A stretch of 13,960 bases of DNA from Falciphora oryzae. Lineage: Eukaryota > Ascomycota > Sordariomycetes > Magnaporthales > Magnaporthaceae. The translations under genes were made by a program, and so were the position numbers. The DNA is taken from NCBI GenBank assembly GCA_000733355.1, contig JNVV01000051.1, positions 1-13,960 on the forward strand, read 5' to 3'. The notes beneath the pieces were generated by a model. The model worked only from the letters and a program-made list of their open reading frames with translations. It searched no databases and had not been told where the DNA came from. Of this stretch, positions 1-12,425 are shown piece after piece (position 1 is the first letter of the stretch; each line of letters starts with the position of its first letter).

Positions 1-2232
1 AGCAACGACCTCGGCCAAGCAGACGCCGTTCTCCGCCGGGAAGCGCCTGATTTATCCGCGCTCCTCGACCACCTGATGGCCAACGACCGCAGTCATTGGG
101 AATCTTATGGATCCAACCAGCCCTCTTCGCAAGGCTCTACCGACGCACCAGTCACTCGTCGCCGCGACAAGAATTTAGGCCCTCGCTTCATGATTGCAAG
201 CATCCTAGCCAACGCTCGCTCGCCAAAGCGGAGCAATTATTTGGCGAAAAGTTTGGGTATTTACCTACTCAACAGCGGAGTGCCGAGGCCGGTAGTAGAA
301 GTTTTGGCGGGATTGGGGGTTTCTTGTTCATATCGCCAAGCAAGGGGGGAGACCACGAAGTTGGTGGAGAGAGCTAAAGTACGTATGCCTGTAGAGTAAT
401 TTGCTTCTTTATCCATTCCATATTAAATTATATCTTTTGGACAGGTGAATTTGCGCCGCGTTGCCCGCGACCTTTCACTCGTTGTTGTATACGACAACTT
501 CAACTTCATGGATCGCATCCAAGACCTGGGATATGGACGTACCGATATCATGCGCAACGTTACTACATGTTTATTTATTGGGTGCCCCGACGTAAAACGA
601 TATACCCAATCCCAGTGGCGCGCAACTTTGCCTTTCCAAAAGCGATGGCTATTCGAAATGTTTACGTCGCCTCTTCCTCGCAACCAGCCAGAATGTGCCC
701 AGTTCCTGTTCCGCCAACAAATCCTCCACCACCTATTCGATGGATCTACAATCTCCAACGATCTATACAGTGGTGCCGAAAACGCTCTAAAGTTGCGCTT
801 CCCCGAAAAGCCTTTCCCAGAAGTATCACGTGCCTTAACTCAGGTGTCATACCTTATCCAAACACCGGCTATTATGGAAAATGAAGGCGAGCTTAGCGGA
901 GTTATCCGCATCCACGAACAGCTATTCCAAGAGCTCCTCGGTTTGAAGCCTGACGACCCTACCTTCGACTACAACGCCAACCTGGTCCTTGTTCATGGCG
1001 ATCAAAAGACAGTTTCCTTTATCCAGCATATCCAATCCGCCCAGCTTGAAGCCAGTCAGCCATTCGACCGCAAACAATGGATGCTTCCAATCCCGGCCTT
1101 TTTCCATATCAAGCTCAATATGCTATCCCACATATGGAAAGAATTTGAGCCATTGGTAAAAATAGACGTGAAAGGACTGGGTCGAACGCAAAAGCTATCC
1201 GTTCCAGTACCAGAGTACTACCACGCCATCAGGCTACTCCAAGACGCTTACCGTGCGCGAATGTTAGCCATGGTTATGTACCAGCTCCAGCAAACCGGTG
1301 CTTTGAGCACAATAGCGGAAATCACCCCGTCTATTCTAGTGTAAGCTTTAGCCAAAGTTTCTATCGACGACATCGACAACCTATATCAAAATATCCGAAC
1401 GGACGCGTTCGGATACTTTGGCAGTACCGGCAACTATCCTGACAATAGGGAGAGCAATATCCTCTTCCGCTCTCAATGCAAGTACCTCCACATTATCGAA
1501 ATACTTTGGGTTGTCGATGAAGCTATTCGAGCCGGTGACCATGGCATACTCCGTCAATATATCCCCATGCTTACCCTGTTCTTCTACGGCTGCAAAGGCG
1601 CTAAGAACTATGGACCACAAATGCTGTATTTAACTTGGCTGTTACGCCCAGAAATTACAGCCGAACCGCTAAATACTGCCATTCTCCGGTCTGGATTAGT
1701 CCGGTGCACTACTGCCGGACGTGGGTTCAAAGCGGCAGACCTCGCCGTGGAGCACATCAACAAAGGCTTTTCTGCGGACATCAAAAGTAACCGCAATTCT
1801 ACCCACGATATGTGGACGACGTTCCAACATTGTGCAGCCTTAGGCCCCATCGCCGCAACATTACGCGCTACCTTCGAATCCAAATTCGGCATACCTAGGA
1901 ATAGTGCACATACCGTTGTAAGCACCAAAGCAGACGTGGTGCAATGGGCGTGTACTTTGGTGAAAAATGGGTGGGGAAATAGTCTCGACCGAGTGAACCA
2001 GGACGAGACATTCGACGCCCCGCAGTTGTTTTCCCAGGGGCTTACCAACCTGCTGAAAAACAAGCTGGATAATTTCAACAAAGCTATGGTAAGGCCGGCG
2101 AGCGTGCAAAGTCAGCAAAGCCTGCCAGAGGCTACCGACGAGGAAGGGATAGGGATTGCCAATACAGAGGGTGAAAAATTGTACCCGCTTGGAGGGGCAG
2201 AGAGCGATGGCGAGGAGGGGTTAGACGACTAG
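1..2232 (+). CDS. DUF6589 domain protein, 5'-partial, one intron, one in-frame stop
   Basis: The frame is open from base 1, so the gene starts left of the window; the ATG at 76 is internal or a late start. Exon 1 (1-378) joins exon 2 (445-2232) in phase 0 across a 66-nt intron, giving about 720 visible residues. I recognise the fungal DUF6589 family from YDNFNFMDR (about residues 142-150), LVHGD (308-312), WMLPIPAFFH, GAKNYGPQML, DLAVEHIN (559-566) and NSTHDMW. The C-terminus is acidic. The family's function is not established. A TAA at 1342-1344 interrupts the frame, and coding similarity continues on both sides. CAA to TAA by one CpA-to-TpA change would explain it; a weak 84-nt in-frame intron (1341-1424) is the alternative. 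The gene is convergent with the RecQ-like gene. The family call is fairly sure; whether the gene is functional is doubtful. Confidence 0.82.
379..444 (+). other. Spliceosomal intron in the DUF6589 gene
   Basis: The donor is GTACGT at 379 and the acceptor is ACAG at 441-444, giving 66 nt, a normal fungal size. Removing it joins two phase-0 exons (...VERAK, then VNLRR...) and clears the TAA at 397-399. The DUF6589 reading runs smoothly across the join. No good CTRAC branch site is visible; the 3' half is AT-rich. Confidence 0.8.
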
Positions 2233-2373
2233 GTAGGTAGCCGCATGGAAAGTTTGCATGGGAATGCTGTTAAATAAAGTTGAATGCTTAAACTACAAAG
2301 AATTTCAATCTGGGTCCACCCTTAACTTTTGCACTAGAACCGGCGCAAATTATACCCGTTTGCGTCTTTTCCC
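2233..2373. other. Convergent intergenic spacer with AATAAA
   Basis: This 141-bp spacer separates the tail-to-tail DUF6589 and RecQ-like genes. It carries AATAAA at 2273-2278 on the + strand, 41 bp after the DUF6589 stop and well placed as a polyadenylation signal. I see no other element in it. Confidence 0.5.
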
Positions 2374-4998
2374 TTAAGACGAAGACCCGTGTCCCTGGCT
2401 AGCACTTCCTTCCGGTTGCGACTGTGGCTGTTGGGGCTGCCTCCTTTTCATTGTGGACTGGCGGTGATGCTCCTGATGCGAAGCAATTCCCCGGCGGTAT
2501 ATACCCTGCACTTTTTCGCGTAGCAGGTCGCCATCTGTTCCCAACCATGCGTGCCATTTTTGATCCCCGAAGTTTTGTGCAGGCGCGCGGACCTGTGGCA
2601 AATCCAACGAGCCCTTTTTCGATTCGATAGCTTTCGCCAAATGGTCTGCCACAATATCTTCCATCAAAATTGTGCCGGGGAGGGTAAATAGCCGAGTGGG
2701 ATCGGGGTATAATTTGGTGTTGGCGATACGCTCCAGAACTGCCATCAGCTCTTTACGTATAAACCACGGCTTTGTGTGCTTTCTAATTTCCACGATCGGC
2801 TTGTTCAGTTTGGGAAGAACGTCGAGTTCACCGAGCTTATGGGAACATGCGTTGCAGCAATCTTCGGGTGGCACTCGATGTGCTTTTACCTCTTGCAGTT
2901 GATTAAGACATTCCCGCCGGAAACAAGAGGCATTGACGAAATCGTACATATGAGGGTGTTCGTTCCGCAATTTAGCTCGCTGTTTAATCTCGGTGGCGGT
3001 CCATGGCAGGGGAATGGCGCCCGAGTAAATGCCGAGTGTGTAGTCCGCGTCGTTTTGAGATGCTGGCGCTAATGGCCTCCCTTCGATTACTTGGTTTGCG
3101 TCAACGGGGGTAAAGTGTGACGTGGAATAGCTTGACGCGGCCGACGCGGCCGATGCAGCCGACCCATGGGACGCGTCTGTCGCAATATCATCCTCTGAAG
3201 TTGCCATCGATAGGCGTAAGTTGCTTGGGGTGAAAGGTGCATGTTGTTGCGGGATGCGGCGTTTCTTTTGCGCTGAAATTTTATCGCCTGTGCCCATTAT
3301 GTCGAAATACCAATAGGGGGCGAAAAAATACCCCGTGCCTCGGCGGTTGCCGGAACGGCATGCGCGACCAAATCTTTGCATCAAATCCGCAACATCTTGT
3401 GAAAGCAGGGCCCCATGTTGTACGACACGCATAACGTCTGGGATATCCATACCCATTCCGAGGGAGACAGTAGACAGAACAATCCTGATAGGGGAATCGG
3501 CCTTCCGGAATATATTATATATCCGTTTTTGGTCGATAGGCGGTGTGATGGAATGGTAAGCAACAATCGTACGACTAGACATTGCGCTATTGATTCCTCG
3601 GCTTTCGAGATATGATATGAGAGCATAGCGGGCTTTTACAAGCCCACTGCGAGAATCTATGTAAATGATAGTTTTGGGAATCGAGGAAGGTTCGAACCCG
3701 GGCAGCATATCTTTCACTAGAAAGAAAAGGCGACGGTAGTCATCTTGTCGTTGTCCCCTCTCGAGGCACTGCACCACGAAAGAAATTTCCGGCCTATCTA
3801 CAGATGTTCGAACAATCTGTAGCTGGTTTTTGTTAGGGCCAGGGAATCTAAACCCCGCGTGAGTAAGGACGAACTGTTCGGCTTTTTGGGTAAGTGTTGC
3901 TGTACACCCAAAGAACGGGATCGACGTAGGGATCGCGGAGCGGATAAAATGGAGATTTGGGTATGAGGTACGGAATTCCCTCCATTGATAAACCGTGTGA
4001 AGTTTGTCGATGGCGATAAAGGCTATTTGTGTGCTGAATTCGGGGTTGCGAAGGAGACGAAGGAACCGATGATCGGTAGCTTGCTCTGGCCCAAGCAGAA
4101 AATGCGTGTATCCTGCCGGGTTGCTAGGTTTCCATACGTTGTCGGTCTAGGATGGTAATATATATTAGCCTGGCCCGATTTGCGCTTTTGTTGCTCCAGT
4201 ATCTTACATTTTTCGTCAAATGGTTAAGTAAAATGGGCTTGGCCCATGGGAACCCGGCAACGACCTGGGCTTGTTCTTCCCCCAACTTATTTAATGGGAC
4301 GAGTTGGATAGTGATATGTTGATTCCGGATGATAGATACTGCTTGGAACACGATGCTTTTGCCATATCCTGTTTTGGCGATGAGGATGGTATCCCCAAGT
4401 TCATAGACGATACGTTGGATGCAGGAGATTTGGTCGGGCTTGGGTTCTCGCCATGGTATGTGGTGTTCCTGGCCTTCTCGGGGCTGATTCAAAAGTGCCC
4501 TGGTAACGGAAGTAATAAATTTACGTTAAAAAAGCGTGTTTTCCGGTTTGTTCGTGTGGTGGTAGATGTCAAGGATGACGTCCCGGAAGGGGCGGCCTTG
4601 ATATTGCCCGGTAGCCAACGCGCGACTATTTTCGATTGCGCGCAACGCAAGCGATATACCGTCGGCTGTTAAGGCAGGCTCGGAGATGCTCTCCATCAAG
4701 TTTTTAGTCCGGTAACCACATAAAGTGGTAAACCAGGAGGTGGTTGTGGAAGGTTGCGGGAATGATGCTATTTTATCCCCATAAGATAATTTTCGCGTTG
4801 GCGATTAGCAATTGCGAACGAAGCGCCTAGGCGGAATAAAAAGTATTTCAGTTTGGAGTTGAAGCTATTCCCACCTTTAGACACTTCTTTATTAATAGAT
4901 GCGACATGTGGTTGTATAGATATGGCCGAGTGTTCAATGTAGATTTTTTCAGTTTGTATGGGGAACATCCCCATAAGAAGGAAAAAATCACCATGTTG
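2374..4998 (-). pseudogene. RecQ-like superfamily 2 helicase, 5'-truncated and mutated
   Basis: Reading leftwards, the protein has WREPKPDQ (motif 0), Walker A AKTGYGKS (4355-4378), LLGPEQ, Walker B region AIDKLHTV (about 3991-4014), GCTATLT (motif III), a helicase C domain with STVSLGMGMDIPDV (V) and QRFGRACRSG (VI), and a RecQ-type zinc cluster (CFRREC, then CCNAC, about 2820-2930). The tail is rich in Q and S. A 61-nt intron (4147-4207) joins the N and C lobes. Damage: TAA at 4526-4528 inside good coding similarity, a frame change between about 4770 and 4805 (1-nt indel, or a poor 107-nt intron starting GTGGGA), and DKLH where DExH is expected. Homology stops at 4998, where an inverted repeat and a transposase begin. 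The family is known as 3'-5' DNA helicases; the role of this fungal subgroup, sometimes repeat- or telomere-associated, is inferred. Confidence 0.85.
4147..4207 (-). other. Intron in the RecQ-like gene
   Basis: On the minus strand the donor is GTAAGA (4207-4202), the branch-like site is GGCTAAT and the acceptor is CCTAG ending at 4147, 61 nt in all. Splicing in phase 0 joins ...HLTKN to TDNVWK... and restores the helicase frame up to LLGPEQ. The apparent frameshift and stop at 4124 are therefore not damage. Confidence 0.82.
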
Positions 4999-5140
4999 TC
5001 TCAGACGTGATCTTCAAAAAGAGGGCCGGCCCGCCGGTACGTGCGCACAGACCAAATGACTTCGTTGCGCCACCCTACCGAGTCATGGAGCCGCGGTGGG
5101 CCGGCCCTTTTTGAATCGATCACGTCTGAGGCACTGAGAC
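4998..5140. repeat. Imperfect inverted repeat (foldback) at the RecQ/pogo junction
   Basis: The left arm 4998-5032 begins GTCTCAG, then ACGTGATC, TTCAAAAA and GGGCCGGCCC. The right arm 5098-5140 is its reverse complement with small indels, including 8 extra bases near the outer end. About 65 bp lie between. The arms mark the point where RecQ homology ends and transposase homology begins. It could be a small MITE or an inverted duplication at a rearrangement breakpoint. Confidence 0.75.
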
Positions 5141-6639
5141 TACCCAAATCCCAGAAATTGACGGAATCCGAAAAAGAGGCGCTTATCAAATACATACTCG
5201 AGCTGGATTCCCGCGCGTTTCCTCCCCGGCCTTCTGGTGTTGAAGATATGGCCAACCGACTACTCGCCGAACGCGACGCGGGCACCGTCGGCAAATGCTG
5301 GGTCGAAAGGTTCGTTAAACGCCGCGCAGAGCTCGGCACGCGTTGGATTCGAAAGTACGACTACCAGAGGGCCAAATGCGAAGATCCCAAGCTCGTTTCT
5401 GCATGGTTCGACCTTGTGCGGAACACTATCGACAAATATGGCATTCAGGATAACGACATCTACAACTTCGACGAAACCGGCTTCCTTATGGGCATAATCG
5501 CGGCCGTCATGGTCATTACAACATCGGAAGGCCGTGGCAAAGCAAAGCTGGTTCAACCTGGCAACCGGGAATGGGCTACAGTCATCCAAGGGGTTAACTG
5601 TTGCGGTTAGGCGATCCCTCCTTTCATCATCGTCAAAAGGCAATACCACCTAGCCAATTAGTACTCGGAAACCGACCTTCCACGCGACTGGGTCATCGCA
5701 ACGAGTTCTAACGGGTGGACTACGAACGAGCTCGGCCTGGAATGGATTCGGCATTTCGATAAACACACTGCAGCTCATTCCACGGGGTCACATCGTCTGT
5801 TAGTGCTAAACGGCCACGAAAGCCACCACTCGACGGATTTCGAACTCTACTACCAGGAACACAACATCATTACGCTTTGCATGCCTCCGCATTCGTCTCA
5901 CTTCCTTCAGCCGCTTGACGTTGGGTGTTTCAGCCCAATGAAAAAAGCGTACGGTCGACAAATCGAAAACTTGATAAGGTCGCACGTTAACTACGTGACC
6001 AAGGTCGAGTTCCTTTCGGCGTTCAAAGCGGCATTCTTTGCTTCTATAACCAAGGAAAACATCCAAGGAGGCTTCCGAGGGGCTGGCCTTGCTCCCTTCA
6101 ATCCAGATTCGGTTCTGGAAAAGCTGGATGTAAAGCTACGGACTCCAACTCCCCCGAGGACGCCTTTGAACGACCCCGAACTTTGGACTTCCAAAACGCC
6201 CCGGACAGCCAAAGAAGCAACTTCGCAATCCAAACACATCAAAACTCGGATCTCCAATCACCAAAACAGCTCTCCGACATCCATGCTAGCGGCTATGGAC
6301 CAATTTGCGAAAGGGGCCAAAGCAATCATGCATCGGGTCAACCTTTTGGAAGAAAAGTGCTCCAAACTACGAAAGGCGAACGAAGCACTAAACAAACGCC
6401 GGAGGGCCAAAAAAACACGTATCCGACTTAGAGAGTCACTTACCATCGAAAAGGTACGAGATGTTCTGGACCAACAGGAGCTGGATGGACAGCTACAGCA
6501 AAAAATGCGCGACCATAGGGGTCAGGAAAGGAGGGCGACGACGACTCGTCGGCGATGTGGCACGTGCGGCAAAACCGGACATAATACGCGCACCTGTCAG
6601 GAAGAAGTAGAAATGTCCGATATATACAGTTCCGAATAG
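5041..6639 (+). pseudogene. Fot/pogo-type (DD35D) DDE transposase, inactivated
   Basis: A single frame matches fungal Tc1/mariner Fot/pogo transposases (DDE superfamily endonuclease). It shows QKLTESEKEALIKYILELD and WVERFVKRR (DNA-binding CENP-B-like region), RKYDYQRAKCEDP, then the catalytic core. The first Asp is in YNFDETGF (5470-5472), the second is replaced by Asn in LVLNGHESH (5809-5811), and the third is in LQPLDVGCF (5917-5919). The last two are 35 residues apart, as expected for the family. A coiled-coil-like basic stretch and a CCHC knuckle (CGTCGKTGHNTRTC, C-x2-C-x4-H-x4-C) end it. TAG at 5608-5610 and at 5659-5661 both fall where the family has Trp (GWAIPP, ANWY), so both are TGG to TAG. 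The usual N-terminal psq-type HTH is not recognisable; homology starts near 5107. Dead element copy. Confidence 0.88.
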
Positions 6640-6746
6640 TTTGAATAGATTTCTGGCGTTGTTGGGTTGGCATGCGAGTTAATTGTCCGGAGGTCGGGGT
6701 GTCGTGGCCCACTCGCTGATATGGTCCACTCACTGATGAACCACGT
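5107..6746 (+). mobile_element. Fot/pogo DNA transposon, 5'-truncated, right end present
   Basis: The right terminus is 6746, followed by TA (6747-6748), about 107 bp after the transposase stop. It ends GATGAACCACGT and carries two copies of a 12-bp motif at 17-bp spacing (6709-6720 and 6726-6737). No matching left end beginning ACGTGGTTCATC occurs before the transposase; an inverted repeat sits there instead. The left limit is approximate. Confidence 0.6.
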
Positions 6747-6748
6747 TA

Positions 6749-7190
6749 ACGTGGTTCATCACCGAGTCGCCCATATCACCAAGTCGCCCACTTCAAAATT
6801 CCATACTAAACGCCGTTTTCGACCCCCCGGTTAAATCCACTAATTTTTTATAAAATTCCATGAAAATTTAATATGTTATATTCAACTATATAATTGATTT
6901 TATAATTATTTTTCCAGATTTTTATCATTGCTATTTAAGGTGATTTACTATTTATACACAGTGTTTTACACAGTGTTTTACATAGTGTTTAAAAGTCTCC
7001 TAAAATAATGCTAATAAAAATCTGGAAAAATAATCATAAAATCAATTCTATAGTTAAATATAACATATTAAATTTTCATGGAATTTTATAAAAAATTAGT
7101 GGATTTAACCGGGGGGTCGAAAACGGCGTTTAGTATGGAATTTTAAAGTGGGCGACTCGGTGATATAGGCGACTCGGTGATGAACCACGT
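6749..7190. mobile_element. Foldback MITE, Tc1/mariner-pogo type, TA target duplication
   Basis: This 442-bp non-coding element has very long terminal inverted repeats (6749 to about 6926 and about 7013 to 7190, roughly 178 bp each). I count about six mismatches between the arms, nearly all transitions. The termini are ACGTGGTTCATCACC and its complement, flanked by TA at 6747-6748 and 7191-7192. The interior is AT-rich with three 12-bp tandem units. It has no coding capacity, so it would need a transposase in trans. The flanking TA and shared end sequence tie it to the pogo superfamily. Confidence 0.88.
6956..6991 (+). repeat. Three tandem 12-bp units at the MITE centre
   Basis: ACACAGTGTTTT occurs twice, followed by the variant ACATAGTGTTTA, with no spacer. 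The array lies between the two long arms. Confidence 0.8.
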
Positions 7191-7192
7191 TA

Positions 7193-7330
7193 GTTAAAAC
7201 GCTATATACAAAATTGCATCGAATTTGAATTAAAATTAGTGGAGTTATAAAGAGTTAAAAAACCGGTGTTTAGTATAGAATTTTGAACTGTCCCACTCGC
7301 TGATGTGTCCCACTTACTGATGAACCACGT
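7193..7330. mobile_element. Truncated right end of a related pogo-type element
   Basis: The sequence from about 7225 to 7330 aligns with the right arm of the neighbouring MITE (ATTAGTGGA, TTTAGTATAGAATTTT) and ends GATGAACCACGT followed by TA (7331-7332). Its paired 12-bp motifs (7293-7304 and 7310-7321) match the version in the pogo right end better than the MITE version. No opposite end is seen, so it is a remnant. Confidence 0.65.
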
Positions 7331-7332
7331 TA

Positions 7333-7428
7333 AGCTTAAATAAGGTCAAAAAATCAGCAAGGGGTCCAAAAAACCAAAAAAAAACCAATAGCCTAAAACA
7401 GCCCCTTAGTCGGCGAATTCGCACTTAC
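7333..7428 (-). other. Start of a further metallo-beta-lactamase intron, cut by transposon end
   Basis: A consensus donor GTAAGT (7428-7423) follows coding sequence. The remaining 96 bp is T-rich on the minus strand and holds no convincing acceptor plus exon before the pogo-type terminus. The last exon appears displaced or lost. If unspliced, the frame ends at TAA 7406-7408. Confidence 0.5.
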
Positions 7429-8243
7429 CAGAGTTATGGTCAGATGCAGCCGCATTCCAAGCTTCCACAAGACCCTTCAACCTCCCCAGCGTGTCGCTGT
7501 AGAGCCGCAAGTTCCCCTCCAACGGGAAAACGATTGGTGCCCATTCGTACATGGTATCTCCAACAAATATCACCCGTTCTTTGGGATCCCAGATAGCGAT
7601 CTCGTCAGGAGTGTGGCCAGGAGTATTGTAGATGACGAGGCCGAGGTTCTCGCCGCTTTCGCCGGCAAAGGCGCGTTGGCGGTCGTCCGCCCAGTTGGTG
7701 ACCTTTTATTCCGGTGTCCCCGCACCGAAGAAGCGGCAGAGCGAACTCGTAGGCAGCCGCCCCTCTCCTTCGATGAATGCCTTTTCGTAGGAGCTCGCCC
7801 ATATGGCCAACTTTTGCGTGTCGGCGAATTGCGCAATGGCACCTTGCGCCCCGTATGTTAGCAGAGACTTGGTTGTCGCCGATCGCAGGAACATTACCTA
7901 TGTGGTTAAAATGGCAATGTGAGCATATGACGACATAGCCTTTTTGAAATCCGGGATTTAGTGCACGATTGTCGTTTTCGGCCACTGGGTAGGTTTCGAG
8001 GAATTCGCGCAGAGACGTGAGTTGAGTCGTTTCGTCCTTGGACGCCCCGCCGCAGCCGGTGTCGATAAGGGCCAGTATAGAGTCGTAAACCTTGACATAT
8101 ATATAGGGAAATTCGGACCATTTGTCGTCCTCGACAATCAGAAACGTGGTGTCGTTCAGCCTTGTGCAGGTGAAGCATGTCGATTTGTTCCCGGCCCCTC
8201 TGCCTTTTGACACCGCGCTATCCGTGCTACTGGTGGGACACAT
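7429..8243 (-). pseudogene. Metallo-beta-lactamase-fold hydrolase, two exons visible, 3' end missing
   Basis: Exon 1 (8243-7898) and exon 2 (7842-7429) encode about 253 residues of a fungal metallo-beta-lactamase-fold protein. Seen are FLIVEDDKWSEFPYIYVKVYD, ALIDTGCGG, the metal motif ICSHCHFNHIG, IWASSYEKAF, YNTPGHTPDEIAIWDP and FVGDTMYEWAPI. The family is known to use HxHxDH to bind metal; here the Asp is Asn (7905-7907), from GAC to AAC in CpA context on the + strand. A TAA at 7706-7708 interrupts exon 2. Exon 2 ends at a GTAAGT donor (7428) and the next exon is not found before the transposon end at 7332. The start ATG at 8243 is the nearest to the conserved region; ATG at 8342 is an in-frame alternative. 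The substrate cannot be told. Confidence 0.78.
7843..7897 (-). other. Intron in the metallo-beta-lactamase gene
   Basis: The donor is GTAATG (7897-7892), the branch site is a perfect CTAAC in TGCTAACATA, and the acceptor is GCAAG ending at 7843, 55 nt in all. Splicing gives HIGAIAQFADTQ, the expected continuation after the metal motif. What looks like a frameshift is thus a normal intron. Confidence 0.85.
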
Positions 8244-8619
8244 CGCGACGGGTGTGAAACGCTCCGGATGGAGTGCTACCATCCAACCCTCTGATCCGAG
8301 GTCCCTTGGGAGAGTCCAACCCTCTGTGGGCGTTTTTGCCAAACCGATCGATCGATCGGCCGAAGTTTTTGGGTTTGCAGCCGCCCGCGCGGATCCGGGA
8401 GATGAGCCGCTCGAGACCAGGCGTCTTGGCCATCCCTATGGATTGGGCGCTGTGGTCTTCATCCAAAGATTGGTCCGACTTTCGGGTGGTGCTGTGTTTG
8501 TGGGTTCCATTGGATGGCCTGGAAGTCGTGGAAAGTTTAGAATGCCGAAATTGAACCGTCATAGCCTTCGTCCAGGACGGGAACTTTAAGCGATGCCCTG
8601 CGATTTGAGTACGTAACAT

Positions 8620-9358
8620 GGTCAGCGAGACGTAGAGGAATTGTGAGATGGAGAACCACGAAGTATATCAACATCGGAAGTCACGGAGAAGTAGGCTTTA
8701 TATAGACGGCCAAGGCACAGTTGAAAGACCTCGAACAGTAAGTAAGTTCCTGTCTACATCTCCCAAGCAAAATGTACAGTTCTGTTGCTGAACCCAGGTC
8801 ATCGTCGTGTCCACCGCCAGGCCCTCGCGCAGCACCATTATCGATCTAGCCCTCTTATTGGAATACAGGCACAACACGGCCTCCAGGCACGGCCGTGGGG
8901 GCTAATCTGTCTTATGTAATGAGGAACGATGACACAAGGTCACGTTACTATGACAAGTTACTTGTATTTAGCCTAGATCCCCTACTGGGACCCATCCTGA
9001 TCCTACTCTGGATCATCCCCTTCCATGGGTGCTAATACAGTACAGATTGGCCCCCAAGACCTCGTTTAGCAACAAATGGGTGGTTCATCCCCAAACAGAA
9101 CAGTCTCCGTCGAGCATGTGAAAGCTGCAACGTACCGGACCATGCATAGGCCAGTTTCCCAGATTCGCCGTGTGATTGGAAGGCCATGGGCTCGAGCGTC
9201 GTCATCCTCCTGCGGGGATCGAAAGTCAAACATGTCTGCTTGACGCTCGCTAGTTCACGCGTGGATAGAACGAACGCCCAGCTATGGCCTGAAATATATA
9301 TGTCGCTGATAGCCCGTGTTGAGACGGACATTGTAATGTTTCCATTCATACTAATACA
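8620..9358. other. Intergenic region, no gene recognised
   Basis: This stretch separates the divergently placed metallo-beta-lactamase and CCCH genes and so should hold both promoters. TATATAT near 9295-9302 lies about 60 bp before the CCCH ATG. I found no convincing coding region, RNA gene or repeat. Confidence 0.5.
8697..8704 (-). promoter_or_regulatory. Possible TATA box upstream of the metallo-beta-lactamase gene
   Basis: TATATAAA lies on the minus strand, about 450 bp upstream of the chosen ATG at 8243. The distance would imply a long leader or an upstream start, so the link is weak. Confidence 0.3.
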
Positions 9359-10021
9359 ATGAGCAACAAAATGGATCAAGGCGTCTGTTTCCAATACGCA
9401 GAGTCCGGTACCTGCCGGTACGGATCAAACTGCAAGTTCCGTCATATGCCTGGAGCGCAAGCCTCAAAGCCGAGCCGCAAACGAAAACAACGGAAGCGGG
9501 GCCGCATTGATGACTTCTTTGCCGACTATCCGGGCTTTGACCACGACTCGTCGGCTCCGGCATGGAGGGAGTTCAATCGAATGTGTGATGAATTTGGCTG
9601 GGAAAGCGATGATTCCCAGACCAAGAGGGCGAAGCAGACGTTCAAGGCCGCCCTGGTGCAAGAGTTCAATCACATATACGGCACAGATGACGACGATCTG
9701 GCATCTTGGCACAAGCTATGCGTTGTCCTGAAGATTCAGCCCGTACCTGAGAGCTTAAAGGAGTGTCGTAAGGCGAGTATGCCCATCGTCCTATACAGCA
9801 TCATGGACGCCATGACTAATGGATACCAGAAACTTCGCAAGATACACGTTAATCTTGTGGACCTTGTGGACTCTCCGCGAACGGGAAAGCCAGTGAAGGT
9901 ATTCCCGAACCTCGAGGGGTTGCAGGATTACACGATCAACAGCGGGAAGTTTTTCCCCAAGAAAGACGCATATGCTGGGGGCCTGCTACGATTTCTACTC
10001 AGGGAAATCCTCCATTCGTAA
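9359..10021 (+). CDS. CCCH zinc-finger protein, fungal family, intact
   Basis: This is a single-exon gene of 220 residues. One CCCH finger lies at residues 10-29 (C10-x8-C19-x5-C25-x3-H29, from CFQYAESGTC to CKFRH), the type usually known to bind RNA and sometimes DNA. A basic stretch at 37-49 (KPSRKRKQRKRGR) could be a nuclear signal. The rest matches a fungal family with DDFFADYPGF, EFNHIYGTDDDDLASWH, VNLVDLVD and a C-terminal FPKKDAYAGGLLRFLLR. The family's role is not known to me. The start at 9359 gives the finger close to the N-terminus; Met5 is a possible alternative. No stops or frameshifts are seen, unlike most neighbours. Confidence 0.82.
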   Translation: MSNKMDQGVCFQYAESGTCRYGSNCKFRHMPGAQASKPSRKRKQRKRGRIDDFFADYPGFDHDSSAPAWREFNRMCDEFGWESDDSQTKRAKQTFKAALVQEFNHIYGTDDDDLASWHKLCVVLKIQPVPESLKECRKASMPIVLYSIMDAMTNGYQKLRKIHVNLVDLVDSPRTGKPVKVFPNLEGLQDYTINSGKFFPKKDAYAGGLLRFLLREILHS

Positions 10022-10862: not shown

Positions 10863-11186
10863 ACGCCAAGAGACAGGGGATTTTCATTTTATCTCGACAC
10901 GCCTAACCGTTTTTGGCCGGTGCCCCGCACCCAAACAGGTTTGTCAGCGTCCGCAATGATGAGAGAGGTCTGACAGGGGGTTGGATGAAGTACCCAGCTT
11001 GTGAGGAGGCGTTTCAGGCCAAAATTAAGCCTAATTTGTACTAGCGGTACAGTCAAAATTGGCTCAACCTCTTGTTTTTGCGCTGCTAGCAAATTGGTCG
11101 TTGCTTCCCGTTGCCCCTCGTCGTTGCCGGCATCTGTTTTCTGCAAATATATTGGCAAAAAGGAGGCTATTCCCAATTTGCCCGCT

Positions 11187-12425
11187 ATGGAGCCCGATCC
11201 CAACGAGGACGCCGACGAGGATAGGGCTGCCGTGACGGTGATAACCACTGTTATCCTTGTTCTTTATTTGGTGCAATTTTGCAGGGAGGAAAAGGGCGCG
11301 CGCCAGATAAACCTACTGTTGAACCAACGCCGCCGTTACCCCTTGTCGAGGGCAATCGTCCATGCCGGTGGTTATTCGTATGCCGCCGGTATCGCTCGAG
11401 ATCTTTTGGAGGCCAACGAACCTCGGTTCTACAGCTTGTTCCGCCTGTCAAAGGAAAAGTTCAGCTTTCTCCAAAACTGGCTAGTCACCAACGGCGGACT
11501 TGAAAGCACCCAATACCAAACGCCTGCCCAAAAGCTGATGATCTTCTTGTTGATCGTCGCCCAGGGGGCCAGCCAACGGATCACCTCGCACTTTTTTGGA
11601 GTCGCCCAAAGCACGGTTAGCAAGATCTTCCATAAGGTGCTAGTTAGTATGCAGCGATTCCACCTAGCAGTCGTACGCTTACCTCCTGATGGGTGGTTGG
11701 ACCCGGGGATCGAACTCGACTCGGCAGTTGCCGCGGGTCTAAGCGGCTGTATCGGAGCGATCGACGGCACGCACGTCTCGGCCTTCATCAAAAGCAAAGC
11801 GCAAAAGCTATGGATCGATCGGAAAGGGAGGGTAACGCAAAACGTTTTTGCGGCAGTCAAATCTGACATGGCGTTCACCTACGTATTAGCCGGTGCCGAG
11901 GGCTCCATGAACGACTCGACCTTATTGGGGGAGGTACTAAACAGAGGGTTCCGGATACCCCGGGATAGGTACTACCTAGCAGATGCCGGCTTTGGAACCA
12001 GGCCCGGTATCGTTATGCCTTTCCCCGGGATCCGGTATCATTTGCAAGATTGGAGGGAAGCGGTGGCGCCGCCGCTTACCCGGAAAGAGTTATTCAACCT
12101 ACGCCACTCCCGGACGAGAATGATGGTCGAACGAGCGTTTGGGTGCTTGAAAAGGCGCTGGAGGATCGTTAGGAACGCACCGGCAGAGTACAGCTTTGGC
12201 ACCCAGGTGAAGATTATATACGCGGTGACTGCCCTGCATAATCTGGCGTTGGCAAACCAGGAGGACTGGCAGTTGGAGGAGCCGGATCGAGAGACTCTCT
12301 CCCGGGCGCGGGAGGTCTGCCGGCGAGAGTTGAAGGACCTGCACCAAGATTATATACGTTTAAGGTCCGCGGAGAGGATGGCGGCGCAATATAACGCCCG
12401 GGTCGGTAGATTGAACCAATTGTAG
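11187..12425 (+). CDS. PIF/Harbinger (HARBI1-like, DDE_Tnp_4) transposase, intact
   Basis: This is a 412-residue single-exon protein from the first suitable ATG (11187). It matches the DDE_Tnp_4/HARBI1 family. An HTH-like region ITSHFFGVAQSTVSKIFHK precedes the catalytic core. Acidic residues are D193 in CIGAIDGTHV, D243 in GSMNDSTLL, D266 in YYLADAGFG and E315 in MMVERAFGCLKRRW, all present. LHNLALAN follows, as in the family. Residues about 12-30 are hydrophobic, an oddity near the N-terminus. There are no stops or frameshifts. The partner Myb/SANT-like gene is convergent 118 bp downstream, the two-gene layout known for PIF/Harbinger. The protein could still be active. Confidence 0.9.
   Translation: MEPDPNEDADEDRAAVTVITTVILVLYLVQFCREEKGARQINLLLNQRRRYPLSRAIVHAGGYSYAAGIARDLLEANEPRFYSLFRLSKEKFSFLQNWLVTNGGLESTQYQTPAQKLMIFLLIVAQGASQRITSHFFGVAQSTVSKIFHKVLVSMQRFHLAVVRLPPDGWLDPGIELDSAVAAGLSGCIGAIDGTHVSAFIKSKAQKLWIDRKGRVTQNVFAAVKSDMAFTYVLAGAEGSMNDSTLLGEVLNRGFRIPRDRYYLADAGFGTRPGIVMPFPGIRYHLQDWREAVAPPLTRKELFNLRHSRTRMMVERAFGCLKRRWRIVRNAPAEYSFGTQVKIIYAVTALHNLALANQEDWQLEEPDRETLSRAREVCRRELKDLHQDYIRLRSAERMAAQYNARVGRLNQL

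Follow-up and report, generated by a model that had tools for sequence, protein, structure and literature searches.

The DUF6589 and RecQ-like genes as one transposon

The window analysed here is a whole stretch of 13,960 nucleotides at the start of contig C51 (JNVV01000051.1) in the 50.2-Mb, 123-contig genome of Falciphora oryzae (GCA_000733355.1), the contigs of which are denoted by C-numbers. It begins with two genes that face each other across 141 bp, a plus-strand DUF6589 gene and a minus-strand RecQ-like helicase gene, each with a single GT..AG intron and an in-frame stop codon (Table 1), as the original prediction had described. PF20231 (DUF6589) matched both halves of the plus-strand gene in Pfam (E = 1.4e-23 and 4.6e-23), and the minus-strand gene matched Helicase_C and DEAD, with the WRN, RECQ1 and BLM helicases as the nearest solved structures to its product. 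Both genes lie within one copy of a DNA transposon, in all probability of the AcademH type. Its right border is at position 5142 rather than at 4998, where the unit had first been taken to end, and its left end is cut by the start of the contig, which removes ~955 bp by comparison with the copy on C23.

Across the genome, at least 47 matches to PF20231 and at least 62 to the helicase of the window were identified. Five weak helicase matches (<40 bits), which were host-gene-like, were set aside, and matches on the same strand were merged if closer than 2.5 kb, giving 42 DUF6589 clusters and 42 RecQ-like clusters. A RecQ-like cluster was present within 2 kb of 35 of the DUF6589 clusters, and the arrangement was convergent in all 35 pairs. 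In this genome the two families co-occur, in many copies and with common borders, and together they constitute one transposon, as had been proposed.

The termini of the element are formed by the inverted repeat TAGTCTCAGTGNCTC. The window copy and eight others are alike up to ...GAGGCACTGAGACTA, after which each diverges, and the terminal motif, inverted, also bounds the DUF6589 side of the units. With at most one mismatch, GRGGCACTGAGACTA occurs 56 times in the genome, compared with seven times for a reversed control. The two ends are identical at 19 of 19 bases in the C23 copy, and in the copies on C59, C54 and C26 they agree through base 15 at least.

Target duplications were assessed in the 14 units with both ends in the fetched sequence, and 12 of these carried an exact 9-bp duplication. 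Uninterrupted counterparts were present for three insertion sites. For example, the window copy interrupts a pogo-like transposase gene at its start, and a related pogo copy on C52 is intact through that point; conversely, the same pogo gene carries the C52 unit, flanked by the duplication TACCAAAGG, and the pogo copy of the window is uninterrupted there (near 5360). Similarly, a flank on C108 has the C70 insertion site in uninterrupted form. The alignment of several loci within this genome thus bears out the earlier suggestion that the unit moves. With regard to the repeat targeting first suggested, the units on C51, C52 and C72 all lie in or at the end of pogo-like element copies, a raw count not set against the abundance of pogo. 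The pogo-like gene of the window itself contains an in-frame stop.

Most units (11 of 14) measured 6.1 to 7.2 kb, the longer ones being those on C41 (13.6 kb) and C72 (21.8 kb) and a dimer on C9 (12.1 kb). A cargo reading of the C72 unit was considered and set aside in favour of nested insertions, which are the likelier source of its extra DNA. This DNA consists of two inserts that break the element, and the element coordinates on either side overlap by 9 bp at the first, of 613 bp, and by 6 bp at the second, of ~14.5 kb. The 613-bp insert (C72:63696-64308) and a 281-bp insert on C56 (C56:30810-31090) were also considered as non-autonomous relatives. Both have 9-bp overlaps but lack TAGTCTCAG ends, and they are of another kind.

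Among eight close copies, 1073 columns varied between two states, of which 1067 were transitions (C/T or A/G) and six were transversions, and in the C-to-T columns the C was followed by A in 230, T in 195, C in 77 and G in 48. The near-exclusive occurrence of transitions implies that the copies were nearly identical when mutated, and therefore that their spread was recent. Damage of the kind left by repeat-induced point mutation (RIP), originally read from the stop codons in the two genes of the window, is evident in the family, the changed C lying preferentially before A or T, while the window copy was only lightly hit (TpA/ApT of 0.78 versus 0.99-1.14 in its seven close relatives). Of the 15 copies measured, ten had TpA/ApT values of 0.99 to 1.14, and the window copy and those on C59, C92, C44 and C54 had values of 0.70 to 0.83; in the C92 copy, the matched regions of both genes are free of stops. 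The element is a real DNA transposon that was recently mobile and whose copies RIP has affected to differing degrees.

Table 1 Features of the transposon copy and its insertion site, in window coordinates.
Feature	Position	Strand	Details
Transposon copy, probably AcademH type	1..5142		Right border common to nine copies; size from comparison with C23:340384-346480
DUF6589 gene (candidate DDE transposase)	1..2232	+	N-terminus missing; intron 379-444; in-frame stop 1342-1344
First candidate catalytic Asp codon	493..495	+	D17 of modelled copy, motif YDN; conserved in 22/22 covering rows
Second candidate catalytic Asp codon	1000..1002	+	D171 of modelled copy, motif GDQ; 31/32 covering rows
Candidate catalytic Glu codon	1750..1752	+	E421 of modelled copy, motif EH.N; 30/32 covering rows
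Stop-to-stop gap	2233..2373		141 bp, between the DUF6589 and RecQ-like genes
RecQ-like helicase gene	2374..4804	-	Intron 4147-4207; in-frame stop 4526-4528; 5' end beyond ~4804
Subterminal palindrome	4997..5133		Arms 4997-5036 and 5094-5133, 80% complementary, 57 nt apart
Right terminal inverted repeat	5124..5142		19 bp by the C23 copy, the ends of which agree 19/19
Pogo-like transposase gene holding the insertion	5143..6639	+	HTH_Tnp_Tc5, DDE_1; related C52 pogo copy spans the junction

A candidate DDE transposase and the AcademH type

We infer that DUF6589 is the DDE transposase of the element, with a catalytic role suggested by a predicted fold that resembles DDE transposases and by two Asp residues and one Glu residue that are conserved across most or all covering rows. 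The transposases of the P element, Hermes (hAT), RAG1 and Transib share this predicted fold, with 8 to 11% of aligned residues identical, and in the DUF6589 model, likewise, a stretch of helices separates the second Asp from the last Glu. To our knowledge, none of these elements has a helicase. Nuclease or other fused domains were not shown among the 33 + 18 DUF6589 relatives compared, and in the transposase itself Pfam returned DUF6589 only, up to E = 1, and so no Mutator-like element (MULE) domain. A description of DUF6589 as a transposase was not found in the open-licence papers of PubMed Central (PMC), where DUF6589 goes unnamed and PF20231 appears in a single paper, which by its title is unrelated.

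AcademH is a lineage of the Academ DNA transposons, reportedly described by Kojima in 2020. In the excerpts of the literature on which this and the following comparisons draw, AcademH elements have target duplications of 9 or 10 bp and a helicase (PMC10045372) and are found in Ascomycota at low copy (PMC10799480), while fungal Academ copies contain DEAD and recQ_fam domains and are often annotated as host genes (PMC6416283). The element described here has a helicase gene with DEAD and Helicase_C domains and RecQ relatives, a 9-bp duplication that is exact in most units and a fungal host, and its predicted fold and conserved D, D and E would correspond to the DDD/E transposase of AcademH. The RecQ-family helicase lies inside the element, as in the fungal Academ copies, the account of which, in excerpt, does not name DUF6589. 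Although first put forward as undescribed, the element fits a known kind, and what is new is the annotation for DUF6589, a Pfam family of unknown function with members listed as hypothetical proteins, which thereby gains a likely one.

We therefore consider it very probable that the window holds a ~6.1-kb class II DNA transposon of the AcademH type, with DUF6589 as its DDE transposase and the RecQ-like protein as an accessory helicase, in a family that spread recently and then underwent RIP. The DUF6589 transposase would bind the ends, excise the element and join it to a target in which the cuts are staggered by 9 bp, and the convergently encoded helicase may unwind the ends or process a transposition intermediate. 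After the recent spread, RIP struck many copies, the window copy lightly, and both genes of the window copy contain a stop. A DUF6589 gene beside a RecQ-like gene in a fungal genome is thus probably a transposon rather than two host genes, and such RecQ-like genes should not be taken for host or telomere helicases.

Several observations weigh against this interpretation. Seven of the 42 DUF6589 clusters had no RecQ-like cluster within 2 kb, and the same number of RecQ-like clusters had no DUF6589 cluster within that distance, while one of the 35 pairs relies on a DUF6589 match under the Pfam cut-off. Among the unpaired DUF6589 clusters, those on C16, C35, C69 and C72 (one each) lie 2.8 to 16 kb from a convergent partner, for the two on C30 the only partner is distant and in another orientation, and the one on C36 has no RecQ-like partner. 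Two mismatches occur in one terminal repeat of the C92 and C44 copies (in C92 within the first 15 bases), the C41 duplication matches at 8 of 9 bases, that of C70 spans only 7 bp with one mismatch, and the target duplication of the window copy is out of view, its left end being cut off. In the transposase, Lys replaces E421 in the copies on C54 and C35, which are otherwise open, and the structural comparison with Foldseek gave a best E of 0.016 and TM-scores of at most 0.26, with no match at E 0.001. In addition, the ~40 units found here contrast with the low copy number of AcademH in fungi (PMC10799480), and the likeness to AcademH was drawn from descriptions rather than from reference proteins of Academ. 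Separately, the long RecQ-like frame on C35 is lengthened artificially by a run of N.

The foremost alternative is a separate, unnamed DDE superfamily with a DUF6589 transposase, which gained its RecQ-like helicase independently of AcademH. Such an origin would suit the high number of units and a transposase in which Pfam gives DUF6589 alone, and Academ membership is here suggested by anatomy only, as the transposase was set beside Academ by descriptions rather than by sequence. We nevertheless regard it as unlikely, as the 9-bp duplication, the helicase and the fungal host all agree with AcademH and a fungal Academ with a RecQ-family helicase has been reported (PMC6416283). A Mutator-like element is a very improbable reading, and Pfam gave no MULE domain up to E = 1. 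The ~9-bp target duplications of Mutator-like elements do resemble those observed, but we know of no helicase partner for MULEs. Kolobok elements, for their part, duplicate TTAA, which was found in none of the 14 units, against 9 bp in 12. This leaves very little room for KolobokH, even though it too is a fungal DDE transposon that encodes a RecQ helicase (PMC9587614). Subtelomeric RecQ families do occur in fungi (PMC4522978), but the proposal that two host genes, or helicase genes of that type, are adjacent by chance is effectively ruled out by the pairing of 35 of 42 clusters in a single orientation, by the terminal repeats and target duplications, and by several copies deep inside Mb-size contigs rather than at chromosome ends (for example, at 1.03 of 1.20 Mb in C9 and 1.65 of 1.92 Mb in C5), positions that also speak against the telomere targeting first suspected. 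Helitrons have neither terminal inverted repeats nor a target duplication (PMC4522978), both of which are present here.

Palindromic ends and a head-to-head dimer

The right end of the window copy, which contains a subterminal palindrome, folds better than its shuffles (z = -8.2), while two control stretches of the window gave z values of 0.65 and -0.14. For other ends, z was -4.5 (right) and -4.0 (left) in C54, -2.7 (right) and -0.15 (left) in C59, -1.9 in the right end of C26 and -1.9 in the left end of C23. Terminal palindromes as a general feature are therefore borne out only in part, as they are pronounced in some copies and missing from one.

A 12.1-kb macro-palindrome at C9:1029390-1041537 consists of two copies arranged head to head and fused at their left ends, with a 10-nt spacer at the junction (GAGGC-TAGTTTTAGT-GCTTT). 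Beyond the two right ends, the dimer as a whole is bounded by a 9-bp duplication. A comparison of its halves gives 492 transitions, 3 transversions and 3 gap bases, compared with 27 to 372 gap bases between either half and four other copies, and the dimer probably represents a single element that was duplicated in inversion and then inserted as a unit, although it may be an assembly artefact. One outer end of the dimer carries an extra tandem copy of the terminal motif.

It is conceivable, if rather doubtful, that the ends go through a state in which they are closed, hairpin-like or sister-fused, and that the RecQ-like helicase has been retained for opening them, in which case the C9 dimer would be a fossil of this state and the end palindromes the helicase substrate. 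The copies with open genes, together with the head-to-head dimer, make a role of the RecQ-like helicase in DDE transposition testable.

Other species and neighbouring features

For both proteins, the nearest named relatives come from Annulohypoxylon, Achaetomium, Chaetomium, Lasiosphaeria and Xylaria. When the lists of 33 and 18 DUF6589 relatives were compared with 48 RecQ-like proteins, six sizes of the longest contig recurred, five through the list of 33 and a sixth through that of 18: 7473 (Annulohypoxylon truncatum), 14770 (Achaetomium macrosporum), 645570 (Lasiosphaeria ovina), 97513, 6912 and 8176. These shared sizes suggest that DUF6589 and RecQ-like genes are also linked in other species. 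Xylaria intraflava and Chaetomium globosum occur in both lists, with longest contigs that differ in size. Outside fungi, 67 viral and 8 prokaryote stretches fit a DUF6589 pattern and none was confirmed by tblastn, the pattern being narrow and this result weak evidence of absence.

Further features lie beyond the pogo-like gene. At window positions 6746-7333, two 200-bp arms that are 93% complementary flank 46 bp in a palindromic repeat that is foldback-like or resembles a miniature inverted-repeat transposable element; a further copy of its end motif was found, and related sequence is present at loci L012 and L028. A metallo-beta-lactamase-fold gene follows on the minus strand (7406-8435), apparently split between frames, with the Lactamase_B match in 7406-7705. 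On the plus strand, an open frame with a CCCH zinc finger occupies 9323-10021, and an open Harbinger-like transposase frame (DDE_Tnp_4) extends over 10989-12425.

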